This document shows, in pieces, positions 11,374 through 59,066 of a stretch of 64,000 nucleotides of DNA; within the stretch, counting starts at the first letter, position 1; each line of letters begins with the position of its first letter. The position numbers were made by a program, and so were the translations under genes. The notes beneath the pieces were generated by a model, which saw only the letters and a list, made by a program, of their open reading frames with translations, was not told the DNA's origin and searched no databases. The stretch covers positions 2,728,001 through 2,792,000 of the forward strand of contig CP152408.1 in the NCBI GenBank assembly GCA_038961845.1, written 5' to 3'. Source of the stretch: Xylophilus sp. GW821-FHT01B05. Its GTDB lineage: Bacteria > Pseudomonadota > Gammaproteobacteria > Burkholderiales > Burkholderiaceae_C.

Positions 11374-11529
11374 CCCGGGATTATCCCATCCGGGCCCGGA
11401 CGGCTGCGCGGGCCGGGGATGGCGCCACCGCTAGAATCCCGGGTTTTCACGCAGCGCCCGTGCCGGCCCCATTCAGCGGCCAGCTACGAGGCCCCGTACC
11501 GCTTCCCGCAGACCCCCAAGGCCGCCCCC
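11374..11529. promoter_or_regulatory. Divergent map/purL intergenic region
   Basis: This 156-base gap separates the divergent starts of map and purL and must contain both promoters. It is very GC-rich with an AT patch near 11430-11450 (TAGAATCCCGGG), which could be a -10 element for purL. No clear PurR-type palindrome was found. Confidence 0.45.
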
Positions 11530-25815: not shown

Positions 25816-25817
25816 GG

Positions 25818-27511: not shown

Positions 27512-27535
27512 GGTCAGTTCTCCTTGTGAATCGCT

Positions 27536-28930: not shown

Positions 28931-29259
28931 GGCGCGTCCTCCAAGGCAGGCAAAGCCGCCGTCTCGTCGCGGTCGTCGGGTTCATCGAAGCTCGCCGGAA
29001 TCGGCGGCAGCTCGGCCAGCGTCCGGTATTCGTCCGGCCCGGCCCGGCCGGAGAAGAAGCGCCGCCGGAACGCTTCGGCGGCGGCGCGGCAGTCGTCTTC
29101 GCCCACGGCCTGCCGGTCGTCCGCGCACTGCGCACGCAACGCCTTGAGCCGCACGGGATCTGTGGTCAAAGCGTCGGCCAGGTTCTCGGCCGACTGCTGG
29201 CCGTACGCGGTCAGCAGCAGGGCCAGCAGCGAAACCGACAAGACGGGAGCGCATCGCAT
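28927..29259 (-). CDS. trbK: TrbK-type entry-exclusion protein with altered lipobox
   Basis: A 110-residue protein between trbJ and trbL, the expected place for the entry-exclusion factor. The N-terminus MRCAPVLSVSLLALLLTAYGQ is a signal sequence in which the position of the lipidated cysteine is tyrosine (codon TAC, 29203-29205). The two EexN homologues of this window read LTACGQ at the same place. The segment TTDPVRLKALRAQC and a second cysteine in DDCRAAAEAFRRRFF match those homologues, while the acidic C-terminus is longer. It overlaps trbL by four bases. It probably blocks redundant transfer between donor cells, but loss of the lipid anchor may abolish or change this. Confidence 0.8.
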   Translation of the reverse strand: MRCAPVLSVSLLALLLTAYGQQSAENLADALTTDPVRLKALRAQCADDRQAVGEDDCRAAAEAFRRRFFSGRAGPDEYRTLAELPPIPASFDEPDDRDETAALPALEDAP

Positions 29260-29271
29260 GGCCGTCTCCCG

Positions 29272-30009
29272 TCAGTTGTTGTAGAAGTTGACGGACTGCG
29301 GCGTGTACGGCGTGCCGCTGCCCAGGAAGCGCCGCCGCACTTCGCGGGCGCGCTCGGTGGCCGCCGCCTGCCGCGCCAGTTCCAGCGAGGCGGCGCGGTC
29401 TTGCGTGATCTGGAGCTGCTGGGACTGGATGGACTGCTTGGCCTGCAAGGCAAGAAGCTGGTTGGTCGCCTGCTGCGCCTGCAAGGCGCCGGTGGCCGAT
29501 TGGCTCTGGCTCACGAGGTCGGCCAGCGCGCTTTCGTCTTGGGCCAGGTTCTGCGACACCTGCGCCTGCATCCGCATCGCGGTATGCAGGCCGTCGAGGG
29601 TGTTCTTCCAGCGTTCGCGGGCGTCCTGCGCCATGCGGTCGCCGCTGATGGTCGCGGCGTACTGCTCCGGGTACAGACGCGCAAACGTGGCATCCATGCT
29701 CTGCACGTCGTAGGCCAGTCCCTGCGCCTCGGCGATCAGGCGTTCGGTGGTGGCGAGCGTGGAGCGCAGGCGGTTAACGATGTTGAAATCGAGGCTCGCC
29801 AGATTGCGGGCCTGGTTTATCAACATCTGCGCCTCGTTTTGCAGTTGATTGATCTGGTTGTTGATCTGCTCCATCGTGCGGATTGCCGTCAGCGTGTTCT
29901 GCACAAGGTTGGCGGGGTCGATGAACGTGAGGGCCGATGCGGGCTGCGCGGTCAGCAGCGTCACCGACAGCACGGCGGCTAGGGATACGGAGAGAGCACG
30001 GATCTTCAT
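29272..30009 (-). CDS. trbJ: Mating-pair-formation protein TrbJ (VirB5-like)
   Basis: A 245-residue exported protein. The ATG at 30009 overlaps the trbE stop (ATGA) and gives a Sec signal peptide (MKIRALSVSLAAVLSVTLL, cleaved near QPASA). The mature protein is mostly helical with predicted coiled coils (TMEQINNQINQLQNEAQML and QAQQATNQLLALQAKQ), as in TrbJ/VirB5 pilus-tip proteins. A longer frame upstream would overlap trbE by 100 bases. The C-terminus ends TPYTPQSVNFYNN. Confidence 0.93.
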   Translation of the reverse strand: MKIRALSVSLAAVLSVTLLTAQPASALTFIDPANLVQNTLTAIRTMEQINNQINQLQNEAQMLINQARNLASLDFNIVNRLRSTLATTERLIAEAQGLAYDVQSMDATFARLYPEQYAATISGDRMAQDARERWKNTLDGLHTAMRMQAQVSQNLAQDESALADLVSQSQSATGALQAQQATNQLLALQAKQSIQSQQLQITQDRAASLELARQAAATERAREVRRRFLGSGTPYTPQSVNFYNN

Positions 30010-32456: not shown

Positions 32457-32468
32457 GGCGGCGTCCCC

Positions 32469-32741
32469 CTACACGTCCAAAAGCGGTTTGTGCTTGATGT
32501 GCCGAGCGAAGACCTGCATGAACTGCGGATCGACGCGCGCACCCCAGACCGCCAGCGAATGGCCGACGATCCAGAGCACCACACCGGGAATCCACAGTTG
32601 CAGGCCCAGCCCGACGGCGGCGGCCAGCGTGCCGTTGGCAATCGCCACGGTGCGCGGCGCACCGCCCATCAGGATCGGCTCGGTGAGTGAGCGATGCAGC
32701 GGCACCTCGAAGCCCGCGGTGAAGGCATCCGGGGCGCTCAT
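32469..32741 (-). CDS. trbD: Mating-pair-formation protein TrbD (VirB3-like)
   Basis: A 90-residue inner-membrane protein starting MSAPDAFTAGFEVPLHRSLT, a typical VirB3/TrbD opening, with one long hydrophobic segment (TLAAAVGLGLQLWIPGVVLW). Its start codon ATG at 32741 overlaps the trbC stop by four bases. The same frame stays open upstream through trbC and trbB as an overlapping reading frame with no homology, so the short form is the real gene. Confidence 0.92.
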   Translation of the reverse strand: MSAPDAFTAGFEVPLHRSLTEPILMGGAPRTVAIANGTLAAAVGLGLQLWIPGVVLWIVGHSLAVWGARVDPQFMQVFARHIKHKPLLDV

Positions 32742-33121
32742 ACGATCGCCCCACCAGAGAACGAGAAGAACGACAGGAAGAACGAGGACGCGGCGAACGC
32801 GATGGACAGACCGAAGACGATCTGGATCAGCTTGCGGAAGCCGCCGCTGGTATCGCCGAAGGCCAGCGCCAGGCCGGTGGAAATGATGATGATGACCGCG
32901 ACGATGCGCGCCACCGGCCCCTGGATGGATTCGAGAATAGAGGTCAGCGGGCCTTCCCACGGCATCGAGGAACCGGCGGCCTGCGCGGTGCCGGCCGTCA
33001 TCAACATGACGGCGGCCAGCAGCAGGCCATGGTGCGCCGGCGCGGCCAGGCGCCGCAGGCGTGCGAAGGCCGAAGCCGGATTTACGGAAATGCGGAAAGC
33101 ATGAATGTGCATCTGCGTCAT
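32738..33121 (-). CDS. trbC: Conjugative pilin TrbC (VirB2-like)
   Basis: A 127-residue pilin precursor. A long signal region (residues 1-48) with a positively charged start and a hydrophobic stretch LLLAAVMLMTAGTAQAAG ends in a likely AQA cleavage site. The mature part contains two hydrophobic segments (VARIVAVIIIISTGLALAFG and IVFGLSIAFAASSFFLSFFS), the pattern of VirB2/TrbC pilins, which may be cyclised by TraF in P-type systems; a traF gene is present at 61.6 kb. It overlaps trbB and trbD by four bases each. Confidence 0.94.
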   Translation of the reverse strand: MTQMHIHAFRISVNPASAFARLRRLAAPAHHGLLLAAVMLMTAGTAQAAGSSMPWEGPLTSILESIQGPVARIVAVIIIISTGLALAFGDTSGGFRKLIQIVFGLSIAFAASSFFLSFFSFSGGAIV

Positions 33122-34164
33122 GGCAGTTCTCCAGAGGGTTCAGGGGACGGGGAGGAAACTGGCGGTAGCTCGGGAAACGGCGTTTCCAGCGCATCCGCCA
33201 TGCGATAGCCCACGCCGTCGAATCCGACGACGCGGGCGATGCTTTCGACGTGGCGCTTGCGGCCACGCCCGGCGATGTGGATGACAACGTTGATGGCCTC
33301 AGCGATCAACGCGCGCGGCGGATTCACTGCCACTTCAAGAATTAGCTGCTCCAGGCGCAGCAGCGCGCCCAAGGTGGAACCGGCGTGAATCGTGGCGATG
33401 CCACCGGGGTGGCCGGTGCCCCACACCTTGATGAGATCAAGCGCCTCGCCGCCGCGCACCTCACCAACGATCACGCGATCGGGGCGCAAGCGCATCGTGG
33501 CGCGCACCAGTTCCTGCATCGACACCACGCCTGCGCGCGTGCGCAGCGGCACATGGTCGCGGGCGGCGCATTGCAGCTCGATGGTGTCTTCGAGCACCAG
33601 CACGCGGTCGCCGGTGGCGGCGATCTCGGCCAGCAGCGCGTTCGCCAGCGTGGTCTTGCCGGTGCTGGTGCCGCCGGCGATCAGGATGTTCTGCCGCTCA
33701 CGCACGGCGCGGCGCAGGAACTCGGCTTGGCCGGCAGTCAGGATGCCGTCGGCCACATAGCGATCCAGGCCGATGATGCTGATGGCCCGCTTGCGCAGCG
33801 CGAAGGCCGGGCCGGGTGCTGCCGGCGGCAAGATGCCCTCGAAGCGTTCGCCCGTTTCGGGCAGCTCGGCGGTCAAGAGCGGCTGGCCGCGATGCACTTC
33901 CGCGCCGACGTGGGCCGCGACAAGACGAATGATGCGTTCGCCATCGGCCTCGGGCAGTTCCACGCCCAGCGGTGCGCGACCTGACGACAGCCGATCCACC
34001 CATAGGGTGCGGTCGGGGTTGAGCATGATTTCCACCACGTCGGGGTCTTCGAGCGCGGCGGCGATCAGCGGCCCCATTGCCGTGCGCAACATCTGGATGC
34101 GGCGATCCTGTGAAGTTGCGGCAGACGAACGCGGCTCGGACGGTATCTGCGGCACGGCGCTCAT
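33118..34164 (-). CDS. trbB: Conjugative transfer ATPase TrbB (VirB11-like)
   Basis: A 348-residue hexameric ATPase of the secretion superfamily. The N-terminal domain is followed by Walker A GGTSTGKTT (164-172), an Asp box VLVLEDTIELQC, Walker B RPDRVIVGEVRGGEALD, and the His box GHPGGIATIHAGST. It works with TrbE on the cytosolic face. The proline- and serine-rich tail (about 20 residues) is longer than usual but poorly conserved. The start overlaps the copG stop by four bases. Confidence 0.96.
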   Translation of the reverse strand: MSAVPQIPSEPRSSAATSQDRRIQMLRTAMGPLIAAALEDPDVVEIMLNPDRTLWVDRLSSGRAPLGVELPEADGERIIRLVAAHVGAEVHRGQPLLTAELPETGERFEGILPPAAPGPAFALRKRAISIIGLDRYVADGILTAGQAEFLRRAVRERQNILIAGGTSTGKTTLANALLAEIAATGDRVLVLEDTIELQCAARDHVPLRTRAGVVSMQELVRATMRLRPDRVIVGEVRGGEALDLIKVWGTGHPGGIATIHAGSTLGALLRLEQLILEVAVNPPRALIAEAINVVIHIAGRGRKRHVESIARVVGFDGVGYRMADALETPFPELPPVSSPSPEPSGELP

Positions 34165-34625
34165 GAAGCACGCTCCCGCGCTTCAGCCAGCGCCGCCGCG
34201 TCATCCATGCGCGCGGTGTCCGGGTGCAGTTCTTCCACTACGTCGCGCACCAGACTCCGACCGCGCAGAAGATGGCGCCCGAGTTGTTCGATGAACTGCT
34301 CGAAACGCGCCTTGCCCTGGGCGCGGACCGCTTCCTGATGTGCTTCGGGAATCGGCGTGCTGACGGTCAGGAAGTAGCGGACAAATAGCGCCAGCGTTTC
34401 GATCTGGATGTTCTGGTCGCGCTCCAGGCGCTCGGCCTGGCGCGACAGCCGATCCAGCCGCTTGGCGATGGCCGCCTCGCGCTGGTCACCGGCATCGGGC
34501 GATAGCCAGGACGCCAGCGCCGCTGCAACGATGGACGACTTGGACACGCCTTTCTTGGCGGCGAGTTCGTCCAGGCGCTTGGCGTGCTCGTGCTGGATGA
34601 ACAGATTGAGGCGGTATTGGCTCAT
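34161..34625 (-). CDS. CopG-type ribbon-helix-helix protein between traG and trbB
   Basis: A 154-residue protein with an N-terminal ribbon-helix-helix domain (MSQYRLNLFIQHEHAKRLDE, then KKGVSKSSIVAAALASWL) and a helical, charged C-terminus with a probable coiled coil (KRLDRLSRQAERLERDQNIQ). Its place between traG and trbB, overlapping both by four bases, is conserved in Tn4371-type elements as I know them. It is likely an autoregulator of the transfer operon or an accessory DNA-binding protein for the coupling protein; neither is shown. Confidence 0.88.
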   Translation of the reverse strand: MSQYRLNLFIQHEHAKRLDELAAKKGVSKSSIVAAALASWLSPDAGDQREAAIAKRLDRLSRQAERLERDQNIQIETLALFVRYFLTVSTPIPEAHQEAVRAQGKARFEQFIEQLGRHLLRGRSLVRDVVEELHPDTARMDDAAALAEARERAS

Positions 34626-36619
34626 AGGTCGATTCCATCGTTGGGGTCGAGGGAAGCCAGCCGGGCCGTGCGCTGCATGGCCGGGTCGAGCTGGCCGGGA
34701 AGCGGCAGCGGAAAGTCGTCGTCATCGAGCAGCGCCAGGTCGTTACCTGCGGGCTGCGGTTCGGCGCTGTATTCGGCGACCTCGGATAGCTCCGGCCGCC
34801 GGCGCGGGCCGCCGTCGTCGGTGCCGTCGAGGTCATCGGCGGATGCCGTGGCCGCTGCGGTCGGCACAGCCGGAATCGCCAAGCCGCTCCAGTCATCGGG
34901 TCGCAATGGCGGCGCATCGGCGTAGCACCCGGCTGCAAGCACGGGCGGCGGCAACATACGTTGCTTGAAGTTGGCGTCCGTGTAGTAGCGCAGCTTGTGC
35001 GCCTTGATCGGCGCCAGGCTGGACACCATCACCACCGCCTCGTCGGGCGGAAGCTGCATCACTTCGCCTGGCGTCAGCAGTGGCCGGGCCGTTTCCTGTC
35101 GCGACACCATCAGGTGCCCCAGCCACGGGGCCAATCGGTGCCCGGCATAGTTGCGCTGCGCGCGCAGCTCGGTCGCGGTGCCGAGCGTTTCCGAAATACG
35201 TTTGGCGGTGCGTTCGTCGTTGGTAGCGAACGTCACGCGGACATGGCAGTTGTCGAGGATGGAATGGTTCTGCCCATACGCCTTGTCGATCTGGTTGAGC
35301 GACTGCGCGATGAGGAAACTGCGGATGCCGTAGCCCGCCATAAAGGCGAGCGCGGTCTCGAAGAAGTCGAGCCGACCCAGCGCCGGGAACTCATCAAGCA
35401 TCAACAGCAGCTTGTGGCGGCGTTCGATGCCATCGGAGCCGTCGAGCGATTCCGTGAGTCGCCGCCCGATCTGGTTGAGGATCAGTCGAATGAGAGGCTT
35501 GGTGCGGCTAATGTCCGAGGGCGGCACCACCAGGTACAGCGACACCGGATGCTCGGAAGCAATCAGGTCGGCGATGCGCCAATCGCAGCGCGACGTGACT
35601 TCGGCCACCGTGGGGTCGCGGTATAGGCCAAGGAAGCTCATCGCCGTGGACAGCACGCCCGAACGCTCGTTGTCGCTCTTGTTGAGCACTTCTCGCGCGG
35701 CCGAAGCGACCACGGGATGCGGCGCATCGCCCAGGTGCTTCGTCGTCATCATCCGGTGCAAGGTCAGCTCGAACGGGCTGGCCGGGTCGGACAGAAAATT
35801 GGCGACGCCGCGCAAGGTCTTGTCTTCGCCGGCGTAGAGCACATGAAGAATCGCGCCGACCAGCAGCGCATGGCTGGTCTTCTCCCAGTGATTGCGCTTC
35901 TCCAGCGCGCCTTCGGGATCGACCAGGATGTCCGCGATGTTCTGCACGTCGCGCACTTCATGCGCGCCGCGCCGCACTTCCAGCAGCGGGTTGTAGGCCG
36001 CTGACTTCGCATCGGTGGGGTTGAACAGCAGGCAATGCGAGAAGCGCGAGCGCCAGCCGGCGGTGATCTGCCAGTTTTCGCCCTTGATGTCGTGGATGAC
36101 GGCGGACGCGGGCCAGGACAGCAGCGTTGGCACCACCAGGCCCACACCCTTGCCCGAGCGCGTGGGCGCGAAGGTCAGGACGTGTTCCGGCCCTTCGTGG
36201 CGAAGGTACTCATTGCGATACCGGCCGAGGAAGACGCCGGCCGGCTGCGTCAGACCGGCCTTGCGAACATCGTCCGTATCCGCCCAGCGCGCGGAACCGT
36301 AGGTGGTGACAAGGCGCGATTGCCGCGAACGCCACACCGACATGGCGATGGCAACCACCACGGCCACCAGGCCGCTGCCGCCGGCGATGGCCCCACCCAC
36401 GTCGAAGACGTGTGGCGCGTAGCCATCGAAGACGAACCACCATTCAAAGAGCCGCCAGGGGTGATAGACCGGCGTGCCGAAGAAGTCGAACCAGGGCGAG
36501 CCAAGGCGTAGTTGGTAGGCCAGAGCGGCGGCCGTCCATTGCGTTGCACTCCATACGCCGGCGATCACGATGCCAAAGACGGCAGCGATCTGCCCGAAAA
36601 ACACGCCCTGAGCTTGCAT
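34622..36619 (-). CDS. traG: Type IV coupling protein TraG (VirD4-like)
   Basis: A 665-residue inner-membrane ATPase that brings the relaxase-DNA complex to the secretion channel. It has two N-terminal membrane segments (residues about 10-35 and 73-95), Walker A APTRSGKGVG (151-160) and Walker B LLLMLDEFPALGRLD, with the VirD4-typical FLIAQSLNQIDKAYGQNHS. The C-terminal 70 residues are acidic. It is the first gene of the transfer operon; upstream a strong hairpin terminator separates it from eexN, so its promoter should lie in 36620-36776. Confidence 0.96.
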   Translation of the reverse strand: MQAQGVFFGQIAAVFGIVIAGVWSATQWTAAALAYQLRLGSPWFDFFGTPVYHPWRLFEWWFVFDGYAPHVFDVGGAIAGGSGLVAVVVAIAMSVWRSRQSRLVTTYGSARWADTDDVRKAGLTQPAGVFLGRYRNEYLRHEGPEHVLTFAPTRSGKGVGLVVPTLLSWPASAVIHDIKGENWQITAGWRSRFSHCLLFNPTDAKSAAYNPLLEVRRGAHEVRDVQNIADILVDPEGALEKRNHWEKTSHALLVGAILHVLYAGEDKTLRGVANFLSDPASPFELTLHRMMTTKHLGDAPHPVVASAAREVLNKSDNERSGVLSTAMSFLGLYRDPTVAEVTSRCDWRIADLIASEHPVSLYLVVPPSDISRTKPLIRLILNQIGRRLTESLDGSDGIERRHKLLLMLDEFPALGRLDFFETALAFMAGYGIRSFLIAQSLNQIDKAYGQNHSILDNCHVRVTFATNDERTAKRISETLGTATELRAQRNYAGHRLAPWLGHLMVSRQETARPLLTPGEVMQLPPDEAVVMVSSLAPIKAHKLRYYTDANFKQRMLPPPVLAAGCYADAPPLRPDDWSGLAIPAVPTAAATASADDLDGTDDGGPRRRPELSEVAEYSAEPQPAGNDLALLDDDDFPLPLPGQLDPAMQRTARLASLDPNDGIDL

Positions 36620-44102: not shown

Positions 44103-45227
44103 TCATGCGCCGACATACGGAGCAAACGAGTGGCTGAACCGCTGCCCGCCCTCAACCAAGCTGCGCGCAGACTGCAGGCGCTGTTGCTCATAACGGCGCA
44201 GCGCCTCTTGGCCCGCGCTGCCCCGCACCCCGTCACTCGCCGCGTCGGCGAGCGCCAAGGCATCCAGCAGGGAGGCGCCGAAGCCCTTTCCGGTCATGGG
44301 CGTCGGCACGTGTGCTGCGTCTCCGACGAGTGCAATGCGCCCGCGCGCGAGGCGGTCCGGGAGGTATTCCGCAACGGGCGTGCCGATGACGGCGCGGCGG
44401 CTAATGCAGTCTAGGATGGCGTCGCGCCACGGCGTCGGCCAGTGCTTGCGGGCCTGATCTGCGAGGTCTTGGTAGACCGCCTCGGGCACATCCCTAGCAC
44501 GCAGCGTGTGTTGGACCACGTCATCGGCGACACACCCGCTCTCTTCGAGTAGTCCGTTTCTGTTGGCGTCGTACCAGGCCCAGCCCAACTGGCGTGAACC
44601 TTTCTTGAGCGATCCATCCGCGCTTGGCAGCGGGTAGCCCAGCAGGATGAAATCGCCGCTGTCCAGGTAAGCGACATCGGTTGGCCAGCGAACGTTGGAC
44701 GGCAGCGTGCTCTCCTGCGCCACGCCCAGCCAGATCAGGTAGCCGGCGAAGCGGGCATCTGGGCTTTGCGGGCAGACGCGCTTGCGCACCACGCTGCGAT
44801 GGCCATCGGCACCGATGACGATGTCAGCGCGAAAGCGGTCACCGGCGCGGGTCATCGCCCATGCGCTGTCGTCGTCCTGATCCACGGATACCACGTCGGT
44901 GTGGGCGTAGAGGCGGATGTTCGGATCGGCGTCCGCTGCCTCGCGCAGTCCGGCGTGGACGGTGACCCAAGTTTGCACGCCGGCCGGAATCTCTTGCCCG
45001 AGCGCCGTGAGTCGAGGGCCGACGATGCGCTGCAGCAGCTTCTCCTCAACGTGGATGGCCGCGCCGGTACGCCCCGTGTCGCCCGACCTTTCCAAGACGG
45101 AGACCGTCAGTCCTGCGCGCGAAAGCGCGAGCGCCGTCATGAGGCCGGATAGCGAAGCTCCGACGATGACTGCAGTGCCTGGCATGGTCGGGTCCGGCGC
45201 TGTGCGGAGAGATGTTCGTTCACTCAC
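44103..45227 (-). CDS. FAD-dependent aromatic-ring monooxygenase (PHBH fold)
   Basis: A 374-residue flavoprotein of the p-hydroxybenzoate hydroxylase fold. The FAD-binding GXGXXG is seen as VIVGASLSGLMTALALSRAG (residues about 20-39), the DG motif as DIVIGADGHRSVVRK, and the second FAD motif as IALVGDAAHVPTPMTGKG. Such enzymes hydroxylate phenolic or related substrates with NAD(P)H and O2; the TetX/salicylate-hydroxylase branches are closest by eye. It is the last gene of a minus-strand operon and overlaps the SDR gene by four bases. The substrate is unknown. Confidence 0.88.
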   Translation of the reverse strand: MSERTSLRTAPDPTMPGTAVIVGASLSGLMTALALSRAGLTVSVLERSGDTGRTGAAIHVEEKLLQRIVGPRLTALGQEIPAGVQTWVTVHAGLREAADADPNIRLYAHTDVVSVDQDDDSAWAMTRAGDRFRADIVIGADGHRSVVRKRVCPQSPDARFAGYLIWLGVAQESTLPSNVRWPTDVAYLDSGDFILLGYPLPSADGSLKKGSRQLGWAWYDANRNGLLEESGCVADDVVQHTLRARDVPEAVYQDLADQARKHWPTPWRDAILDCISRRAVIGTPVAEYLPDRLARGRIALVGDAAHVPTPMTGKGFGASLLDALALADAASDGVRGSAGQEALRRYEQQRLQSARSLVEGGQRFSHSFAPYVGA

Positions 45228-45991
45228 GGCAACGACACCCCTGTGAGTTGGGCGAGCCGGGCCAACAACTGATTCTGAAAGGTGCGATCCGACACTTCAC
45301 CGGCCGGCTTCTGCCTTTTCTTGTGATGCCAGTAGCCACCGCTGACAAGCGCAGCCGCATCGCTGCTGGTGGCCAGCCACGTCTGCGTCTGGTGACCCAT
45401 CTGCAGATCGTCAGGTGCACCGGCGCCGCCCATGCGTGTGGGAACCCAACCCGGGTCGACAGCGTTACTCAGTACCTCGGGCCATCGGTGTTCGAGCGCT
45501 GCCGCAAGCGCGGCGACATGGAGCTTGGTCTCGCAGTAGGCTCTGGTGGTCTGCCAGCGACGTTCGATCCAGTCGATGTCGCGCAGCGAACCTTCCCCGT
45601 CGCGATGCATGCCGCTGCTGAGGTACACCAACCGGGCCGGTCGCTCCATCAAGGCGGTGAGCAGGTACGCCGCCAACGTGTTTACGGCGAGCACCGTTGC
45701 ATGGCCCTCGGGCGTATTGCCACGGCTCGTTTCCATGTAGATACCGGCGTTGTGGATAACGGCGTCCATCCGGCCGATGGCGTTGACCTGGGCGGCGAGG
45801 GCGCGGGTTTCGGCCGCACTGGCAAGGTCACCCACCACAACGGCCGCCACACCCACCAGGCTTCCCCGCAGTGAGCGGGCTCGCTCATTGGAGCGAGCAT
45901 GCACGATGACTTCATGGCCGTCGGCGATGAGTTCCTGCGCCGCTGCGCGGCCCAAGCCTTCGGACGATCCGGTGATGAAAACGCGGCTCAT
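45224..45991 (-). CDS. Short-chain dehydrogenase/reductase, cytosolic relative of the Tat-tagged SDR
   Basis: A 255-residue SDR without signal peptide. It has the cofactor motif TGSSEGLGRA at residues 7-16, NAG in VIHNAGIYME, and the catalytic YXXXK as AYCETK. The C-terminal WVPTRMGGAGAPDDL and YWHHKKRQKP stretches are shared with the exported SDR at 55.5 kb (WVPTRMGGAHAPDDL, FYHKKPQRM), so the two are paralogues. It is co-transcribed with the ABM monooxygenase and the FAD monooxygenase. The substrate is not known; reduction of a carbonyl is the likely reaction. Confidence 0.9.
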   Translation of the reverse strand: MSRVFITGSSEGLGRAAAQELIADGHEVIVHARSNERARSLRGSLVGVAAVVVGDLASAAETRALAAQVNAIGRMDAVIHNAGIYMETSRGNTPEGHATVLAVNTLAAYLLTALMERPARLVYLSSGMHRDGEGSLRDIDWIERRWQTTRAYCETKLHVAALAAALEHRWPEVLSNAVDPGWVPTRMGGAGAPDDLQMGHQTQTWLATSSDAAALVSGGYWHHKKRQKPAGEVSDRTFQNQLLARLAQLTGVSLP

Positions 45992-47135: not shown

Positions 47136-48255
<1,120 letters not shown>

Positions 48256-50636: not shown

Positions 50637-51530
50637 CTATTTTTTGTAGCGCAACGATTCGATCAGCAAGACGATTGCTCGCGACGATTGGCGGCGACTC
50701 GGATAAAACAAGTGGAAGCCGGGAAACGTGGGATGCCAGTCCTCAAGTACCTTTTTGAGTCGTCCCTTGGCGACATGGGCCTGTGCAATTTCCTCGGGAA
50801 CAAACGCCAGTCCAAACCCCGCCAAGGCGGCCTCCAGAACCTGATAAATGCCATTGAAAACAAATTGCCCTCCGACACGGACCCTCAGTTCGCGCTTGCC
50901 TTTCTTTAGCTCCCAAGCGTAAGGCCCGCCGTAAGTCGGCAAGTGCAAATTGATGCAGTCATGGTGAGCCAGGTCCTGCGGCGTCTTCGGTGCCGGCCGC
51001 TTCGCTAGGTAAGAGCGTGATCCGACGACTACAAAGCGCACATCCGGCCCAATTCGGACAGCGATCATGTCTTTGGCAACCTCGTCGCCGAGACGAACGC
51101 CCATGTCATAGCGTTCCGCAACGATGTCGGAAAAGCCATAGTCGATCATCACTTCGATCTTGATATCGGGATACTTGGCAGTGAATTTCGTCAGCTTCGG
51201 CCACAGGACCGAATTGAGCGCGTAGTCGGTGGTCGTGATGCGAATAGTGCCTTTGGGCTTATCCCTCAGTTCAGCCACTGCGGCTAATTCGGCCTCGACT
51301 TCCTCTATCCGAGGTGCCGCCGACAACAGCAGGTGCTCTCCCGCCTCGGTAGGCGAGACGCTACGTGTCGTGCGCGTCAAGAGCCTGACACCAAGCCTTT
51401 CCTCGAACGCGCGGATGGTCTGACTCAGGGCCGACTGGGATACGCCAAGCTGCGCGGCCGCTCGGGTGAAGCTCCGCTCCCTTGCGACGACGATGAAGGA
51501 AAGTAGATCCGTGAGATTGCTGCGTGACAT
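50637..51530 (-). CDS. LysR-family regulator divergent from the exported-enzyme cluster
   Basis: A 297-residue regulator, paralogous to the one at 48.3 kb. The ATG at 51530 (MSRSNLTDLLSFIVVARE) is preceded by GGGAG eleven bases upstream; an open frame to 51674 adds non-conserved residues. The DNA-binding and effector domains are complete; the end reads HLFYPSRRQSSRAIVLLIES. It faces the cupin gene cluster across 406 bases and is followed by the alcohol dehydrogenase, so it may control both sides. Confidence 0.92.
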   Translation of the reverse strand: MSRSNLTDLLSFIVVARERSFTRAAAQLGVSQSALSQTIRAFEERLGVRLLTRTTRSVSPTEAGEHLLLSAAPRIEEVEAELAAVAELRDKPKGTIRITTTDYALNSVLWPKLTKFTAKYPDIKIEVMIDYGFSDIVAERYDMGVRLGDEVAKDMIAVRIGPDVRFVVVGSRSYLAKRPAPKTPQDLAHHDCINLHLPTYGGPYAWELKKGKRELRVRVGGQFVFNGIYQVLEAALAGFGLAFVPEEIAQAHVAKGRLKKVLEDWHPTFPGFHLFYPSRRQSSRAIVLLIESLRYKK

Positions 51531-51936
51531 TGATAACTCCCACTTATGAGTCGATCCAAACCCTATCTTACGGCTCAGGTAGCCAGATTGGAGCGATGAC
51601 GTGGCTGAAGGTACAAGCGTGAAGACTGGATACCGACGGGACGGAGCGACGTAGCGAGGGATATGTTCCTTCATCGCGGCCCGACTGATGGGGCGGTTGG
51701 TCAGTTCGTCATGCTTTGAGCGCTCTTGCTGCCAACCACCGCCGCCCCGTTGGCACGCAGACCATCCGTTTCCAGCATTGAAGCATCTGGAGTGAAAATT
51801 GCTAAGTGCAATTAAGAAGCAGCACTTATAAGCTCATGCCGATTTTGATGTCTAGTCACGCAATGGAGCCCGCCTTATAGTTTTATGGCAAGGGTATATG
51901 CACACAAAACCCGAAAATTTTGGAAGCAATCCCACC
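51531..51936. promoter_or_regulatory. Long divergent region before the exported-enzyme cluster
   Basis: No gene is supported in these 406 bases. The part near 51790-51900 is AT-rich and contains AGCACTTATAAGCTC (CTTATAAG is a palindrome). An ATG at 51898 could extend the cupin protein by 13 residues, but it has a badly spaced ribosome site. LysR binding is likely here by position. Confidence 0.5.
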
Positions 51937-52461
51937 ATGAACGAGCACACTTCGACGACGAGGAAATTTTCCTCAAAAGCTGTCCTGCACGCCGCTACCG
52001 CGCTGGTCACTGCTGTGTCGCTGACCGCCGCCGCAGATCCCTCAACGGATGCCAAGGCGAAAGTTGAAATTACCCGTGCAGGCAGCCAGGCCTCATACAT
52101 TGGATCCAACGACACATTCACCGGTCGGGTTCGTGGAGATCCTGTCTGGCCCGGAAACGAGCACATCAATGCCTCGGGCGGTTTGGTGACGTTCGAACCT
52201 GGTGCTCGTTCGGCTTGGCACGTTCACCCCGCAGGGCAACGTCTCGTGGTGGTGGCAGGCGTGGGTCGCACCCAGGAGTGGGGGCAGCCTATGCAGGAAA
52301 TCCGCCCGGGTGACGTTGTCTGGTGCCCGCCTGGGGTCAAGCATTGGCATGGCGCCAGCCCAACCACGGGAATGACCCATCTTGCGGTCACCGGTTCAGT
52401 GGATGGAAAGCAAGTCCAATGGATGGAGAAAGTGACCGATGAACAGTACAACGGGCGCTAG
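51937..52461 (+). CDS. Exported cupin, (R)-mandelonitrile lyase-like
   Basis: A 174-residue protein: signal peptide MNEHTSTTRKFSSKAVLHAA followed by a hydrophobic stretch and a likely cleavage after TAAA, then a single cupin domain. Metal ligands appear as HVHPAGQ (two histidines and a glutamine in place of glutamate) and HWH near GVKHWHGASP. This ligand set and the phrase EPGARSAWH recall manganese-dependent hydroxynitrile lyases (GtHNL, AcHNL), which I compare from memory. Those enzymes are cytosolic; this one is exported. It overlaps the carboxymuconolactone decarboxylase gene by 23 bases. The start at 51898 is an alternative. Enzyme activity is inferred. Confidence 0.85.
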   Translation: MNEHTSTTRKFSSKAVLHAATALVTAVSLTAAADPSTDAKAKVEITRAGSQASYIGSNDTFTGRVRGDPVWPGNEHINASGGLVTFEPGARSAWHVHPAGQRLVVVAGVGRTQEWGQPMQEIRPGDVVWCPPGVKHWHGASPTTGMTHLAVTGSVDGKQVQWMEKVTDEQYNGR

Positions 52462-53221
52462 CGCTCGCAAGGCCAACACACTGGTCGTGGCCTTGGTCCT
52501 GTGTCTGACTACAGGATTGATTCAAACCCCCGCAAATGCACAGGTGTCTCGCTGCATGACTTCCGAAAATACCTCCGCCGAAACGCTTTCTGCCCAACAG
52601 CAGGCCATCGTTCCCATTGCTGCATTCGCTGCTGCAGGCGATATGCCTAAGCTGAGCGCGGCTTTGACCCAAGGCCTGGATGCTGGCCTCGCGATCAGTG
52701 ATGCCAAGGAGGTGTTGGTGCAACTCTATGCCTACGCAGGTTTTCCGCGCAGCCTCAACGCCCTCACCGAGTTGATGAAGGTTTTGGAAGAACGCCGCAA
52801 GCGTGGCATTCAGGACTCCCCTGGCTGTGAACCCAGCCATGCCATTCCTAAAGGTGATGCGCTTCGCGTTGCGGGCACGGACAACCAGACAAAGTTGGTC
52901 GGTAAGCCCGTGCAAGGGCCGCTGTTCGATTTTGCGCCCGCCATTGGCGAGTACCTGCAGACCCATCTGTTTGGCGACATCTTCGAACGTGACAACCTCG
53001 ACTGGAAAAAGCGTGAGCTTGCCACCGTGGGCATGCTGTCCGCACTGCCCGGAGCCGAAGCACAACTGCAATCACACATGGGTATCAGCATGAACGTGGG
53101 CATCACGGTTTCTCAGCTGCGTCACCTCACTCAACTGCTGGCCGACCGCGTAGGTCCCGAGAACGCTCGGCGTGGCAGAGAGGCTTTGGAGCGGCAGCTT
53201 GCCGCGCAGCCCGGCAAGTGA
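52439..53221 (+). CDS. Exported carboxymuconolactone decarboxylase (CMD) family protein with two domains
   Basis: A 260-residue protein with a Sec signal (NTLVVALVLCLTTGLIQTPA, cleavage near ANAQ). Two CMD-type helical domains follow: one at about 50-115 (PIAAFAAAGDMPKLSAALTQ) and one at 180-240 (WKKRELATVGMLSALPGAEA, QSHMGISMNVG). The catalytic CXXC of AhpD-type members is absent, as in true CMD-like proteins. It overlaps the cupin gene and is co-translated. A periplasmic CMD protein is unusual; its partner cupin suggests a joint reaction on an organic acid or cyanohydrin-like compound. Confidence 0.87.
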   Translation: MNSTTGASARKANTLVVALVLCLTTGLIQTPANAQVSRCMTSENTSAETLSAQQQAIVPIAAFAAAGDMPKLSAALTQGLDAGLAISDAKEVLVQLYAYAGFPRSLNALTELMKVLEERRKRGIQDSPGCEPSHAIPKGDALRVAGTDNQTKLVGKPVQGPLFDFAPAIGEYLQTHLFGDIFERDNLDWKKRELATVGMLSALPGAEAQLQSHMGISMNVGITVSQLRHLTQLLADRVGPENARRGREALERQLAAQPGK

Positions 53222-53317
53222 TGTCTTATCTGACTTCAAAGAACCCGCAGCTCATATGTGGGCAGTCTTCATAAGTCAGGGGGGCATCTCGGGAGATGAG
53301 TCTCAAAGGTGACGCAC

Positions 53318-54067
53318 ATGGTCAAAGCAATTAAATGCCTGGCGGCAGTTGCCCCACTCATATTTTCCTCTGCTTGCGGAAATATTGCTGCGCACAATCA
53401 AGCTTCCGCCGCTGCACGGTCCGCATCCCAAGATCGAGTTGCCGTGGGAGTTGATGCCGAGCCTCGCGGGTACTTGATTGCTAATTTCACGGTTTTTAAT
53501 GAAGAACCTTTCAACCAGTACCGCAGTGACGTTAGGAAATTCTTTGGCAACTTCCAGGGCAAGATGATCATGAGGGATACGAATGCCATAGCGATGGAAG
53601 GCGACGCCGCCAAACAAGTTATGGCGATCATCGAATTTTCAAATCTCGGTGCAGCGAAGAAATATTACTTCTCTCCTGAATATACCGCTGCCAAAAAAAA
53701 TCGTATCACCGCAACCGACAGCCTTGTTGCATTGGCCTCGGGCGTTCAGGGTGTGGTCTCAGAGCAAACGAACCCCGCTCGTGGATATCTGATTGTGAAC
53801 TACTCCAGGCGGGACATTGTTGCCGTCAATGAGCATCTGGAGAAAATCAAACCTTTGCTCGAAACCTACAACGGGCGATTTATTTCATCTGATGGGAATG
53901 CGGAAGTGGTAGAGGGTTCTCGCGACCAACTTTTGGCAATCATTGACTTTCCTGGCATTTCATATGCAACGAAGTTCTATCGATCCCTCGAATACACCGC
54001 ATTGCGTCAATCGCAAATCCCGAACATCCCGGTCACCATCGTGATCGGCAACGGTATGCCCGGCTGA
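53318..54067 (+). CDS. Lipoprotein with tandem DUF1330 domains
   Basis: A 249-residue protein. The signal ends in lipobox SSAC (about residue 21). Two copies of a DUF1330-like ferredoxin fold follow: EPRGYLIANFTVFNEEPFNQ with SPEYTAAKKNRI, and PARGYLIVNYSRRDIVAVNE with SLEYTALRQSQI. The normal family is a single cytosolic domain of about 95 residues, so the export and the duplication are both notable. The ATG at 53318 has AAAGGTGA upstream. It stands 96 bases after the CMD gene. Function unknown; DUF1330 resembles ABM-type dimeric barrels, and the two domains could form one pseudo-dimer. Confidence 0.82.
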   Translation: MVKAIKCLAAVAPLIFSSACGNIAAHNQASAAARSASQDRVAVGVDAEPRGYLIANFTVFNEEPFNQYRSDVRKFFGNFQGKMIMRDTNAIAMEGDAAKQVMAIIEFSNLGAAKKYYFSPEYTAAKKNRITATDSLVALASGVQGVVSEQTNPARGYLIVNYSRRDIVAVNEHLEKIKPLLETYNGRFISSDGNAEVVEGSRDQLLAIIDFPGISYATKFYRSLEYTALRQSQIPNIPVTIVIGNGMPG

Positions 54068-55336
<1,269 letters not shown>

Positions 55337-55513
55337 GACGCACTCGGAAGATCTGCTGCCTATAGCGCTTCCTTCCAGTTGCAACCATCTCCCTATGAAT
55401 AGGGGGATGGCCATTAGAAATCAATGCCCACATCCTGCCCGGAAGCCTGTTGCCTACGTTTGAGGTCACGGCGTGCATCGACACGATGGCACTGGATTTT
55501 TTAGAACATTTCT

Positions 55514-56428
55514 ATGCCCAGCAGAATTCAGAATTTCAAGATTACCCGGCGCAGTCTCATGATCAATGCAGCCGTTATGGCGGCAGGAATGGTAGCGGCA
55601 ATCAAGGGGAACACTTCGCCAAACAAGACAGCGAGCGCATCGGCAAAAGGTGAGACTTCCGCACGCATATTGATAACCGGGTCCTCTGACGGATTGGGCA
55701 TGCTCGCGGGCAAGATGCTCGCAACGGGTGGTCATCGTGTCATTCTGCATGCACGGAATGCACGGCGAGCCGAGGCCACCCGAAAGGCGCTTCCCGCTTG
55801 CGAGGCCGTCGTCATTGGCGACGTCTCAAGCCTGGCCGGCATGCGCACGGTTGCCGAGCAGGCCAACGCGCTGGGGCGATGTGACGCCGTCATCCACAAC
55901 GTCGGCATTGGCGATCGCGAGCCCCGGCGTATTGAAACGGTGGATGGGCTGTCCCATCTGTTTGCCATCAACGTTGTTGCTCCCTATTTACTGACTGCGT
56001 TGATCACTCGGCCCGAGCGATTGATCTATTTAGGTTCGAGCATGCACATGGGTGGTAATGCCAGTTTGGAAGATCCGCAGTGGGCCAAACGTAGTTGGAA
56101 CGGCTCCCAAGCATACTCCGATAGTAAATTGTTCGATCTGATCTTGGCGATGGGAGTGGCCCGGCGCTGGCCCGATGTTCGTGCCAACGCGGTAGAACCC
56201 GGCTGGGTTCCGACCCGAATGGGAGGCGCCCATGCACCTGACGACCTTTCTGAAGGGGCTGTCACCCAAGCCTGGCTGGCGTCGAGCAATGATTCCGCCG
56301 CGCTCGTCACTGGCCAGAATTTCTACCACAAGAAGCCACAGCGAATGCTTCCTGTCGCGCGCGACAAAGATGTGCAAGATCGATTGTTCGATTATTTACG
56401 TGGCATTACAGGTGCCTCGATCACCTGA
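55514..56428 (+). CDS. Tat-signal-bearing short-chain dehydrogenase
   Basis: A 304-residue protein with ITRRSLM (residues 10-16) and a hydrophobic segment INAAVMAAGMVAAI, a Tat signal or signal anchor. The SDR fold follows: TGSSDGLGMLAGKM, NVGIG for NAG, catalytic YSDSK, and WVPTRMGGAHAPDDL. It is a paralogue of the cytosolic SDR at 45.2 kb, with 45 extra N-terminal residues. It lies 177 bases after the Tat AKR, so it may have its own promoter. Export is inferred from the signal, not shown. Confidence 0.88.
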   Translation: MPSRIQNFKITRRSLMINAAVMAAGMVAAIKGNTSPNKTASASAKGETSARILITGSSDGLGMLAGKMLATGGHRVILHARNARRAEATRKALPACEAVVIGDVSSLAGMRTVAEQANALGRCDAVIHNVGIGDREPRRIETVDGLSHLFAINVVAPYLLTALITRPERLIYLGSSMHMGGNASLEDPQWAKRSWNGSQAYSDSKLFDLILAMGVARRWPDVRANAVEPGWVPTRMGGAHAPDDLSEGAVTQAWLASSNDSAALVTGQNFYHKKPQRMLPVARDKDVQDRLFDYLRGITGASIT

Positions 56429-56579
56429 CCTATCTCGCGGCGCACATTCTCCTGCCTCTATTTGTCGTTGACGCATCTGGGCTGGCGCAAGGCGTCGACT
56501 CAGGTGTTTATGAGCCATTTTAAATCATCGGACATGGGGCACATTCGATAGCGCCTGTCCTGAGCGAAGGAACGCATTT

Positions 56580-57935
56580 ATGTCATCAAGAAGGCTCCTT
56601 CCTGGGGCCGAGAGTGGCCTGATGGCCAGAATTCGAAGAATAATCGATATGCGTTCAGACGAGACAAGCGCCGTTGCTTGGTCGTGGCTCTATGTCTTTT
56701 CGCTATTCCTGGCTTACTACGTCTTGCGTCCCATACGGGACGAACTCGGCGTGGCTGGTGGAGTTCGGAATCTCCCTTGGCTTTTTACAGGGACGCTGCT
56801 GGTGATGCTTGCCGTGAATCCCCTGTTTGCATTTGCTGTACGTCGCTGGCCACGTGAGCGCTTCATCGCCATCGCCTACAGATTTTTCGCAGCGAATCTT
56901 TTGGTATTCATGGTGCTGCTCAAGACGGCAGCGCCGGAACATCACGTTTGGATCGGGCGGGCGTTCTTCATTTGGGTCTCAGTCTTCAATCTCTTTGTTG
57001 TCTCGGTTTTCTGGTTTTTTGTCGTTGATGTGTTCAATGCGGAGCAAGGAAAGCGGCTCTTTGGCTTCCTGGCGACCGGCGCTACGGTAGGCGGAATCGC
57101 AGGCTCAAGCCTGACTTCCGGGCTGGTGGAAAAAATCGGGCAGGATTGGTTGCTTCTCGCTTCAATCCTGTTTCTTGAAATCGCCGTCTTCGCGTCCCGC
57201 CGCCTTTCCTCGTTCAGCGACGCATTCCAGCGCCCCACTAAAACTGACCTCCATGCCCCGATTGGTGGCGGCATCTTCGCCGGGATTTCGCACACCTTGC
57301 GCTCTCCATACTTGTTGGGGATAGCGTTCTTTATTCTCTTCTATTCAGTCACCTCTACATTCCTGTATTTCCAGCAAGCAACCATCGCGGAGGCGCACTT
57401 CACGGATCGAGGGGCGCGCACGGCCTTCTTCGCCGATATCGACTTTTGGGTAAACGCCGTTACGTTGTTCTTCCAACTATTCTTGACGGGGCGCCTGGTT
57501 GGGATGTTTGGTGTGGCCATGACGTTGTGCGTGCTGCCTCTTTTCAGCGTAGTTGGGTTCGCAGCCTTGGCCACCGCTCCGGCGATAGGAGTTTTTGTCG
57601 CAGTGCAAGTTGCTCGCCGTGTAAGTAACTTTGCGCTGTCCCGGCCGACGCGCGAGGTTCTTTTCACCGCCGTGCGGAGGGAGGATCGCTACAAGGCTAA
57701 GAACTTCATCGATACCGTCGTCTATCGCCTCGGCGATCAGGTCGGAAGTTGGACTTATGCGGCGCTCGCCGGGTTGTTCGGGCTCGGCATGGCAGGAATC
57801 GCTGTGGTTGCCGTTCCTCTCTCCGCTCTTTGGCTGGCGCTGTCAGTCTGGCTAGGCCGGCAGCACCGGCGCCGCAACAATGACGCCAACGAGGTGGCTC
57901 TGGATGCACCTTTGCAGGCGCGTGACGCCATCTAA
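56580..57935 (+). CDS. MFS-type transporter related to NTP/NDP exchange (ATP/ADP carrier) proteins
   Basis: A 451-residue membrane protein with about 12 hydrophobic segments and the family opening YVFSLFLAYYVLRPIRDELG. KNFIDTVVYRLGDQVGSW is the conserved loop shared with TLC-type nucleotide carriers of intracellular bacteria and with free-living relatives of unknown substrate. The ATG at 56580 has AAGGAA upstream. It is followed by the exported amidohydrolase after 12 bases. If it carries nucleotides or NAD(P) across the membrane, it could supply cofactor to the exported reductases; that is speculative. Confidence 0.8.
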   Translation: MSSRRLLPGAESGLMARIRRIIDMRSDETSAVAWSWLYVFSLFLAYYVLRPIRDELGVAGGVRNLPWLFTGTLLVMLAVNPLFAFAVRRWPRERFIAIAYRFFAANLLVFMVLLKTAAPEHHVWIGRAFFIWVSVFNLFVVSVFWFFVVDVFNAEQGKRLFGFLATGATVGGIAGSSLTSGLVEKIGQDWLLLASILFLEIAVFASRRLSSFSDAFQRPTKTDLHAPIGGGIFAGISHTLRSPYLLGIAFFILFYSVTSTFLYFQQATIAEAHFTDRGARTAFFADIDFWVNAVTLFFQLFLTGRLVGMFGVAMTLCVLPLFSVVGFAALATAPAIGVFVAVQVARRVSNFALSRPTREVLFTAVRREDRYKAKNFIDTVVYRLGDQVGSWTYAALAGLFGLGMAGIAVVAVPLSALWLALSVWLGRQHRRRNNDANEVALDAPLQARDAI

Positions 57936-57947
57936 GGCCCGACCCTG

Positions 57948-59066
57948 ATGAATCGCAGAAACCTGCTCGCGTTCGCACTCTCCGCGCCTTTAGCACTTCC
58001 CTTTGCGCGTGCGCAGACACAGTCATCCGCAAGCTATCGCCAGTTGCAGGTCGGCCGTAACGAGCTCATCCTTGAGCCGGATCTCCCGATCATCGACGCA
58101 CACCACCATCTGTTCGACCGGCCCGGTCTGCGCTACATGATTGACGACTACCTGGCCGACACGAATGCAGGCCATCGCGTGGTTGCCTCGGTGTACGTGG
58201 AGACTTCGGCCTTCGCTCGGACGCATGGCTCAGAAATGCTGCGGCCACTGGGCGAAATCGAGTTTGCCAACGGCATTGGCGCGATGTGCGAGAGCGGACG
58301 ATACGGCTGTCGGGCCTGTGCCGCGATCGTGGGTCACGCAGATTTCCGGCTTGGTGACCAAGTGGCTGGGCTGCTGGACAGTGCGATGGAGCGTGCGCCT
58401 GATCGGTTCCGGGGAGTGCGCCAAGTCACCATGGAACACCCCTCTGAAGCGCCGTATCGGTTCATTCCGAACAGGCCGCCGAGCGGCGTGATGAAGAGCG
58501 CAGGCTTTCGGCCCGCCTTCGCCCACCTCGCCAAACGGGGCTTGAGTTTCGACGCGGCCGTGTTTCATCACCAGTTGCCGGAGGTGATCGCGCTGGCGGA
58601 TGCCTTCCCCGATACAACCATCGTTCTGAACCACTGTGGCCAAGCCATGGCGATGGACATGGATGAGCTGGCGAGGCAACAGGTGTTCCGCGAGTACAGC
58701 AGACTAATGACCGAGGCAGGCCGGCGTCCGAATATCTACTGCAAGGTGGGGGGGCTGGGGATGCCCTTCTGGGGCTTCCGATTCGAGGAGCGCAATGACT
58801 CAATCGGATATCGAGAGCTTGCGACGGCTTGGCGTCCCTATGTGGAGACCACTATCGAGGCCTTTGGTGCCAGCCGCTGTCTGATGGAAAGCAACTATCC
58901 CCCGGATGGCCGATCAGCCGGCTTCGTACCGCTTTGGAACGCCCTAAAGCACATCGTGCGCTCCGCATCGGCTGAAGACAAGGCCGCGTTGTTCCACGGC
59001 ACGGCGGCGAAGGTCTACCGTATTCCTCTACCCGATGTGGATGCCGAGAAGGCATCGGCTACATAA
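57948..59066 (+). CDS. Exported amidohydrolase (Amidohydro_2, TIM-barrel metal hydrolase)
   Basis: A 372-residue protein with signal MNRRNLLAFALSAPLALPFA (cleavage after ARA), twin arginines at 3-4. The metal site begins AHHHLFDRP at residues 51-59; other ligands may be H in VLNHCGQA and D/E near the end (LMESNYPPDGRS). The family (PF04909) includes 2-pyrone-4,6-dicarboxylate hydrolase and related lactone hydrolases. It follows the nucleotide-carrier-like gene by 12 bases and ends 121 bases before the relaxase, the edge of the cargo region. Confidence 0.87.
   Translation: MNRRNLLAFALSAPLALPFARAQTQSSASYRQLQVGRNELILEPDLPIIDAHHHLFDRPGLRYMIDDYLADTNAGHRVVASVYVETSAFARTHGSEMLRPLGEIEFANGIGAMCESGRYGCRACAAIVGHADFRLGDQVAGLLDSAMERAPDRFRGVRQVTMEHPSEAPYRFIPNRPPSGVMKSAGFRPAFAHLAKRGLSFDAAVFHHQLPEVIALADAFPDTTIVLNHCGQAMAMDMDELARQQVFREYSRLMTEAGRRPNIYCKVGGLGMPFWGFRFEERNDSIGYRELATAWRPYVETTIEAFGASRCLMESNYPPDGRSAGFVPLWNALKHIVRSASAEDKAALFHGTAAKVYRIPLPDVDAEKASAT

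Follow-up and report, generated by a model that had tools for sequence, protein, structure and literature searches.

In the usual teaching, NAD(P)(H) is absent from the periplasm. Glucose-fructose oxidoreductase (GFOR) and aldose-aldose oxidoreductase use NADP, which in GFOR is tightly bound. Like two enzymes of the locus described here, they are Tat-signal oxidoreductases outside the inner membrane, and the consulted part of PMC4628093 mentions no dedicated carrier for them. A second group of described systems is that of the NTT/TLC nucleotide transporters, of which PamNTT4 transports NAD and related bacterial members are called uncharacterised (PMC5381601, consulted part). The locus further resembles (R)-mandelonitrile lyase cupins and Tn4371-like elements. 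The window, by which we mean the whole 64,000-nucleotide stretch that was analysed, contains the following features:

24535..36619, minus strand: trb/traG-like conjugation genes of the carrying element (traG, trbB, trbE and trbL matches in locus L005)
45224..45991, minus strand: cytosolic short-chain dehydrogenase (SDR) of the same cargo, paralogous to the exported SDR (49-50% identity; without signal extension)
47136..48227, minus strand: aldo/keto reductase (AKR) paralogue without Tat signal, same cargo (55% identity to the exported AKR; signal score below threshold)
50637..51674, minus strand: LysR-type regulator, divergent from the cluster (Pfam LysR_substrate and HTH_1)
51898..52461, plus strand: cupin of the (R)-mandelonitrile lyase family, Sec-exported (NF049940, 173 bits, cut-off 140; signal 9.8)
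52439..53221, plus strand: protein with two CMD stretches, Sec-exported (PF02627 twice; signal 11.6)
53309..54067, plus strand: tandem DUF1330 protein, exported, possible lipoprotein (PF07045, two stretches; signal 10.5)
54125..55336, plus strand: AKR with Tat signal (26 protein letters not shown; PF00248, 228 bits; signal 9.0)
55514..56428, plus strand: SDR with Tat signal (PF00106; alignment A1; signal 10.6)
56580..57935, plus strand: carrier of the NTT/TLC nucleotide-transporter type, proposed to carry NAD(P)(H) (Pfam TLC; 9j3n_A; neighbour statistics)
57948..59066, plus strand: amidohydrolase-2 with Tat signal, lactonase-like (PF04909, 99.7 bits; signal 10.1)

The exported cluster is cargo of a conjugative element, which we take to be a Tn4371-like integrative conjugative element: traG, trb, relaxase and parA-like genes are present (we presume the names of the conjugation genes from their recognised order), and in L005 a homologous traG-trb set (12.4-20.8 kb; traG, trbB, trbE and trbL at 68-84% identity to the window's) adjoins related cargo. 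What sets it apart from Tn4371-like elements described before is the cargo, a cluster of exported enzymes in place of a known catabolic or resistance operon. Close relatives of the LysR regulator adjoin many cupin-CMD pairs; at gathering scores, Rfam has nothing at 50-60 kb. The cupin exceeds the cut-off of the (R)-mandelonitrile lyase model and may have that activity but, unlike the described lyases, has a Sec signal and clusters with an exported CMD protein. The latter falls below the curated NCBIfam cut-off for 4-carboxymuconolactone decarboxylase PcaC (52.1 versus 155.7 bits). GFOR and aldose-aldose oxidoreductase belong to the Gfo/Idh/MocA family, whereas by Pfam the window enzymes and the sampled carrier partners are AKR, SDR, F420_oxidored and Epimerase; the exported SDR retains the catalytic Tyr-Lys and the nucleotide-binding motif (alignment A1).

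That six of the seven proteins carry an export signal, as the earlier note had claimed, is borne out. Using a home-made rule in place of SignalP, which looks for a charged n-region, an uncharged hydrophobic stretch, a small-x-small cleavage site and RR or a lipobox (threshold 9), we find Sec, lipoprotein or Tat signals in 6/7 genes at 51.9-59.1 kb. The best run among 20 control stretches of 20 kb has signals in three of seven adjacent genes, on which we rejected chance clustering; the base rate in this genome is 46 passes among 348 control genes. Note that the rule also has false positives in the window, where it lets through an FMO gene (44103-45227; score 9.1) and starts that lie inside the gene of the cytosolic SDR (10.9), and that the Tat score of the AKR, 9.0, lies exactly at the threshold. 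By our own Tat criterion, the SDR, the AKR and the amidohydrolase each have the RR motif, the hydrophobic stretch and an N-terminal cleavage site. The lipobox that had been read into the DUF1330 protein is a more ambiguous case: the motif (SSAC) is there and its Cys is retained in relatives P0242-P0244, but it is weak, and the rule classes the protein as Sec rather than lipoprotein.

The signals recur among relatives. The amidohydrolase signal MxRRNLLALALASP is found again in L001, L002, L006, L032 and L107, relatives at 85-86% identity bearing the same signal, and Tat-AKR relatives are present in L001, L002, L032, L107 and plasmid L166; in L006 the called start of the AKR relative lies inside the gene, with RR upstream in the same frame. 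CMD relatives have a signal in 70 of 81 cases (80 fetched loci). For the tandem DUF1330 protein there are eight other relatives in 5.8 billion proteins, and five of these pass as exported; P0245 and P0249 fail the rule yet have a hydrophobic N-terminal stretch by eye, and P0243 looks truncated. The earlier statement that families such as these are almost without exception cytosolic goes too far: exported cupin-CMD pairs and Tat-AKRs are widespread.

For the SDR, we considered misplaced start codons and rejected them: an RR extension is present in six of the 120 best matches (the window's own included), which retain RR while the letters around it have diverged, and nearly all the remaining matches begin at, or a few residues from, the catalytic core. 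On a tree of the family (123 rows, after removal of the L111 and L112 SDRs and of two of the 120 matches, none of which passed the core pattern) the Tat signal was gained twice, and both groups include members beside a carrier. Carrier and SDR lie near each other in the window, L005, L202 and L204; L112 has a Tat-SDR and no carrier in its 20 kb, with a carrier elsewhere in the same genome (G314). Since exported clusters related to this one are also present on the host chromosome (L107, L108), on plasmids and in other genomes, the setting is not unique; no second copy of the exact seven-gene set was found among the related loci searched.

The seventh gene is indeed a membrane carrier, with about eight further membrane spans and, judged by sequence, a place in the NTT/TLC nucleotide transporter superfamily. 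It scores 24.3 bits against Pfam TLC (cut-off 21) and 27.1 bits against TIGR00769, far under the cut-off of 387.2, and relatives go under NCBI/JGI names such as 'NTP/NDP exchange transporter' or 'AAA family ATP:ADP antiporter'. Its homology to the ADP,ATP carrier is evident from PDB 9j3n_A ('ADP,ATP carrier protein 1'), matched at E 1.4e-5 with the single sequence and 1.8e-9 with a profile; no other PDB sequence is matched up to E 1. The PDB contains many other MFS transporters. An ordinary drug exporter was considered and rejected, since a profile of 30 relatives matches no other MFS structure in the PDB (E up to 1). There are differences from described NTT/TLC transporters: the hosts here, for example Roseomonas, Pseudomonas and Xanthomonas, are not intracellular parasites, the carrier adjoins Tat-exported oxidoreductases, and MFS_1 is matched by more of the carriers than TLC is (30/30 versus 8/30 at E 0.001 among 30 scanned carriers, window included), which we counted against the proposed role.

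At 63 of 93 loci, the carrier has within two genes an RR-signal member of an NAD(P)-using enzyme family (labelled by BLAST against a panel built partly from carrier neighbours), a count that excludes the window itself and L175, L219 and L242, where no carrier was called. Loci with an AKR partner number 49, those with an F420:NADP-reductase-like one 11, with an SDR 5 and with an epimerase-like one 3, and Pfam confirms the family of sample members. Such a partner accompanies 4/80 control genes with seven or more spans (Fisher p 5e-19, leaving out five multi-span genes of L204-L243, one of them with a partner), and in one set of 399 genomes 61 have the carrier, 100 the AKR family and 55 both (p 8e-33); these p-values are overstated, as related genomes contribute non-independent loci. 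The RR rule was altered once after the result had been seen: the first, strict version, which gave 47/93, barred D, E or P following RR and was replaced because this drops common Tat motifs. The adopted rule, which allows them, flags 24/376 control genes; the loosest yields 66/93 and flags 39/376. RR neighbours outside the NAD(P) families are not enriched (18/93 carrier loci versus 79/296 control positions with any RR). Among NAD(P)-family genes, RR is present in 29/39 in carrier loci L204-L243 versus 11/106 in the 80 CMD loci. An exported F420:NADP-reductase-like protein occurs in 19 of 250 genomes, all 19 of which have the carrier, against a carrier background of 61/399. By the rule, 30/93 carrier loci have no NAD(P) RR partner, and next to the carriers of a subgroup at 36-38% identity (L191-L194, L240) stands another kind of gene. 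We counted these loci against a supply model, as we did the Tat-SDR of L112 and the Rossmann fold common to three of the four partner families. Epimerases hold NAD tightly and may need no supply.

The earlier note had remarked that NADPH-dependent reductases have no obvious cofactor supply in the periplasm; it recognised this difficulty without linking it to the carrier at 56580-57935, though relatives of that carrier are coupled to Tat-exported NAD(P) enzymes. The best explanation of the whole, to which we would give an even chance, is that Tat-exported oxidoreductases receive their NAD(P)(H) through an NTT-type carrier in the inner membrane. A mobile, LysR-linked cluster would place the enzyme set outside the inner membrane, the Tat-exported SDR and AKR would leave the cytosol folded, and the carrier would exchange NAD(P)(H), or the nucleotide part thereof, across the inner membrane, so that, once in the periplasm, exported NAD(P)-dependent enzymes could turn over or be reloaded. 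There the exported cupin, the CMD protein and the lactonase-like amidohydrolase, whose gene starts 12 bases past the carrier, may act on carbonyl or lactone compounds, either the same ones or linked ones, and the cargo's signal-less SDR and AKR twins would deal with compounds that get through. Somewhat more tentatively, at a little under an even chance, many proteobacteria might keep an NAD(P)(H) supply outside the inner membrane through an NTT-type carrier that would exchange nicotinamide nucleotides and feed Tat-exported dehydrogenases and reductases from at least four families, a conjugative element spreading the module together with a periplasmic detoxification or catabolic set. Of the periplasmic detoxification or catabolic pathway proposed earlier, the enzyme set outside has good support from the conserved signals. 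For its exact job, on carbonyl, cyanohydrin or lactone compounds, there are only hints, namely the cupin's score above the (R)-mandelonitrile lyase cut-off and a weak resemblance of the amidohydrolase to L-fuconolactonase (NF052480, 48 bits, cut-off 400).

Might the exported enzymes do without a supply? Tat transports folded proteins and periplasmic GFOR bears a Tat signal (PMC4628093, consulted part), so the oxidoreductases could pass Tat with their NADP(H) tightly bound and then, like GFOR, recycle it on two substrates, the carrier moving an enzyme substrate or product. We had asked whether AKR export is confined to the vicinity of the carrier, and it is not: in genomes in which no carrier was found, the Tat signal is present in 28/38 loci (30/40 with two more), which favours this reading and speaks against a supply by the carrier. 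We nevertheless hold it to be rather unlikely, given that the four partner families, of two folds, have NAD(P) in common and no obvious common substrate, and that the only solved relative of the carrier found is an ADP,ATP carrier. The carrier could instead be a salvage importer of external nucleotides or nucleotide-linked compounds, which the exported enzymes would process (NAD derivatives or nucleotide sugars, for example). NTT proteins are importers in intracellular bacteria (PMC5381601, consulted part). One partner family is epimerase-like, and L204 has, three genes past the carrier, a putative calcineurin-like phosphoesterase (1786-2937) with an N-terminal signal or anchor. However, we know of no action of AKR, SDR or F420:NADP-reductase-like enzymes on nucleotides as substrates, the cofactor aside, and we consider salvage improbable.

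Finally, the gene order could be functionally meaningless, a mobile cargo having gathered unrelated exported enzymes. The cluster does lie within a conjugative element, and such exported clusters are common, plasmids included. Yet the pairing of carrier and NAD(P) partner persists across many genomes of more than one class, 58 of 59 immediately adjacent partners being on the carrier's strand, with the two genes often overlapping or a few bases apart, and we regard this last reading as very improbable.

Returning to a carrier that supplies cofactor, its pairing with Tat-exported NAD(P) enzymes suggests an undescribed way of supplying redox cofactor outside the inner membrane: we found no description of this system in the open-access literature searched, and the consulted parts of PMC5817063 and PMC12542777 do not describe the cluster. 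If true, a dedicated carrier paired with exported NAD(P) enzymes would change the view of what periplasmic chemistry is possible and give NTT proteins a role in bacteria other than intracellular parasites. The old question of where exported pyridine-nucleotide enzymes obtain their cofactor would then become directly testable.

The CMD protein may have a link to defence against peroxide or hypochlorite. RclX of P. aeruginosa, an AhpD-like protein, has a CXXC motif, a motif that we did not find by eye in the window's CMD protein, and a CMD-family gene of B. cenocepacia is up 35-fold with NaOCl (both among PMC2830190, PMC7950407 and PMC7464077, consulted parts).

The membrane carrier encoded in the cluster (56580-57935, + strand) recurs in other genomes, where it commonly stands beside a gene for an NAD(P)-family enzyme that bears a twin-arginine (RR) signal for Tat export. 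We found the carrier in 61 of 399 genomes of the order (E<=1e-20), in 54 of 398 genomes of a phylum sample (E<=1e-12) and in 8 of 150 genomes of the family. At 72 of 93 counted loci an NAD(P)-family gene lies at most two genes away, and at 63 one with an RR signal does: an aldo/keto reductase (AKR, 49 loci), an F420:NADP-reductase-like protein (11), a short-chain dehydrogenase (SDR, 5) or an epimerase-like protein (3). Directly adjoining RR partners share the carrier's strand in 58 of 59 cases, and many of them overlap it or stand a few bases away. Pfam confirmed the partner families in sample members; the remaining labels were assigned by BLAST against a panel of which some members are themselves carrier neighbours. 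Loci with partners span about 20 families and more than one class when mapped by hand, keeping in mind that related loci are not independent.

Control genes rarely show this arrangement. Only 5 of 376 belong to the partner families at all and none is an RR-signal enzyme of those families, with RR present in 24 of the 376; of 80 other genes with at least seven spans, 4 have an RR NAD(P)-family neighbour. Around the carrier there is no enrichment of RR neighbours of other kinds (18 of 93 loci, versus 79 of 296 control positions with an RR neighbour of any kind).

The carrier and its partner families were also counted across genomes. Within the same 399 genomes, 100 have the AKR family and 55 have both AKR and carrier, and 42 AKR matches are no more than 400 bases from a carrier match. 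The F420:NADP-reductase-like protein (E<1e-42) occurs in 19 of 250 genomes, with 20 matches, 19 of them RR-signalled and the twentieth (locus L294) unreadable at its start; each of these genomes is one of the 61 that encode the carrier, although the carrier is at most two genes away in only 7 of 20. The eight genomes with only distant matches to this protein have RR in none and the carrier in two. The nine exported rows of the SDR tree fall into two groups (branches 100/93 and 100/99), and two changes are required, forced by the starred branches. The SDR adjoins the carrier or stands two genes away in the window and in loci L005, L202 and L204, and equal contig sizes (10853 and 23915) suggest that the related proteins P0003 and P0005 share contigs with carriers P0150 and P0151.

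What might the carrier transport? It exceeds the Pfam TLC cut-off (24.3 versus 21), and its sole match among all PDB sequences at E<=1 is 9j3n_A, "ADP,ATP carrier protein 1" (E 1.4e-5, or 1.8e-9 with a profile of 30 carrier sequences). TIGR00769 scores far below its cut-off on the window carrier, and at E 0.001 TLC matches 8 of 30 carriers, the window's counted, versus 30 of 30 for MFS_1; NCBI/JGI names of relatives are likewise divided between NTP/NDP exchange transporter or ATP:ADP antiporter and MFS transporter. NTT family members transport adenine nucleotides, and PamNTT4 transports NAD (PMC5381601). Because of this, and because the cofactor is the one clear common feature of the partner families (the AKR barrel and the Rossmann-fold SDR, epimerase-like and F420:NADP-reductase-like proteins), we give even chances to the proposal that the carrier would supply NAD(P)(H) to the periplasm.

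Several results bear on how strict the pairing is. Where a genome yielded no carrier, the AKR family has Tat signals at 28 of 38 loci (30 of 40 after adding two loci from carrier genomes), and the carrier is therefore not obligatory for an exported AKR. Locus L112 has a Tat-SDR and no carrier within its 20 kb, and a carrier subgroup of 36-38% identity has no RR NAD(P) partner. GFOR (glucose-fructose oxidoreductase) holds bound NADP. The main rival to NAD(P)(H) supply is that the partners keep a permanently bound cofactor, as in GFOR, which is Tat-exported (PMC4628093); the carrier would then move a substrate. Carbonyl or lactone chemistry is plausible for the cluster's enzymes: the cupin scores above the cut-off of the mandelonitrile lyase model, the amidohydrolase has a weak likeness to lactonases, and an exported gluconolactonase-like and a sugar-dehydrogenase-like protein accompany the carrier's nearest relative in the searched genomes (L204, 66%). 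Each of the protein families is already known. What appears undescribed is that NTT-type carriers and Tat-exported NAD(P) enzymes repeatedly occur as a pair, of which the open-access literature searched gave no account.

Two kinds of membrane protein recur at some of these loci. In L191-L194 and L240, of the 36-38% subgroup, one of about 115 residues adjoins the carrier in place of the Tat partner. In L265, L266, L268, L269, L271, L273-L275, L277 and L278, from genomes without the carrier, a Tat-AKR is often closely followed by a small one resembling MSEWWTYxLSDFLMFSP, perhaps another Tat-AKR partner.

The earlier note held that six of the seven cluster proteins carry an export signal, and this is borne out by a simple signal rule of our own (not SignalP), by control stretches and by conservation.

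Export scores of the cluster proteins (threshold 9)
Cupin: 9.8
Carboxymuconolactone decarboxylase-family protein (CMD): 11.6
Tandem DUF1330 protein: 10.5
AKR: 9.0
SDR: 10.6
Amidohydrolase: 10.1

Applied to 348 genes in 20 stretches (20 kb each) of the same genome, the rule passes 46, and the best run of seven neighbours contains three. The rule gives false positives within the window (FMO and internal starts of a cytosolic SDR); conservation of the signals is the stronger argument. The CMD signal is present in 70 of 81 relatives (80 loci). Among 73 loci with a cupin match, 35 have exported cupins only, 18 cytosolic only and 20 both. The SDR's extension, RR plus a hydrophobic stretch, occurs in 6 of the 120 best relatives, the window's counted, nearly all the others beginning at or near the catalytic core. 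From 5.8 billion proteins came 1611 candidate relatives of the tandem DUF1330 protein (53309-54067), and only eight proteins besides it reach E<=0.001.

That such families are nearly always cytosolic, as also claimed, is too strong: exported clusters lie on the host chromosome, in other genomes and on plasmids, and exported members are therefore common. A second host-chromosome cluster (L107) has two LysR genes and encodes a Tat-AKR, DUF2255, dienelactone-hydrolase-like and glucose/sorbosone-dehydrogenase-like proteins, an RR amidohydrolase at 86%, a cupin and a CMD. L001, L006 and L032 have almost the same gene set, as does L002 over the extent compared. A third host-chromosome cluster (L108) has a cupin-CMD fusion. 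Exported cupin-CMD pairs, accompanied by other exported enzymes, are encoded on an Achromobacter plasmid (L166) and a Klebsiella plasmid (L168). Klebsiella plasmid L167 encodes a CMD protein with a signal, but our script did not call the cupin there.

Some neighbours in these clusters deserve mention. In L108 (G000:C1:560000-578000, 4475-13492) the fusion has an N-terminal signal, and nearby oxidoreductase-like, RR and flavodoxin-like proteins also seem, by eye, to bear signals. In L167 (pK66-45-1, 4040-12534) the cupin and signal-bearing CMD adjoin an annotated heavy-metal two-component pair and three annotated aldo/keto reductase genes. L166 encodes (10937-11617) a protein of Flavodoxin_2, an NAD(P)H-using family, with an RR-containing N-terminal signal.

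The window (G000:C1:2728001-2792000) holds two gene groups, 24.5-36.6 kb and 59.2-63.8 kb, that look as if they belong to a Tn4371-like conjugative element; we take their genes to be trb/traG and relaxase/parA, respectively. In Variovorax L005, traG, trbB, trbE and trbL are matched at 68-84% identity with order kept, adjoining cargo related to the window's. The cargo between the two parts (37-59 kb) comprises reductases, monooxygenases and LysR regulators. Its low-GC part (about 55% at 50-58 kb) is the exported cluster, made up of one divergent LysR gene and seven tightly spaced or overlapping + strand genes; SDR and AKR twins without signals lie in the same cargo.
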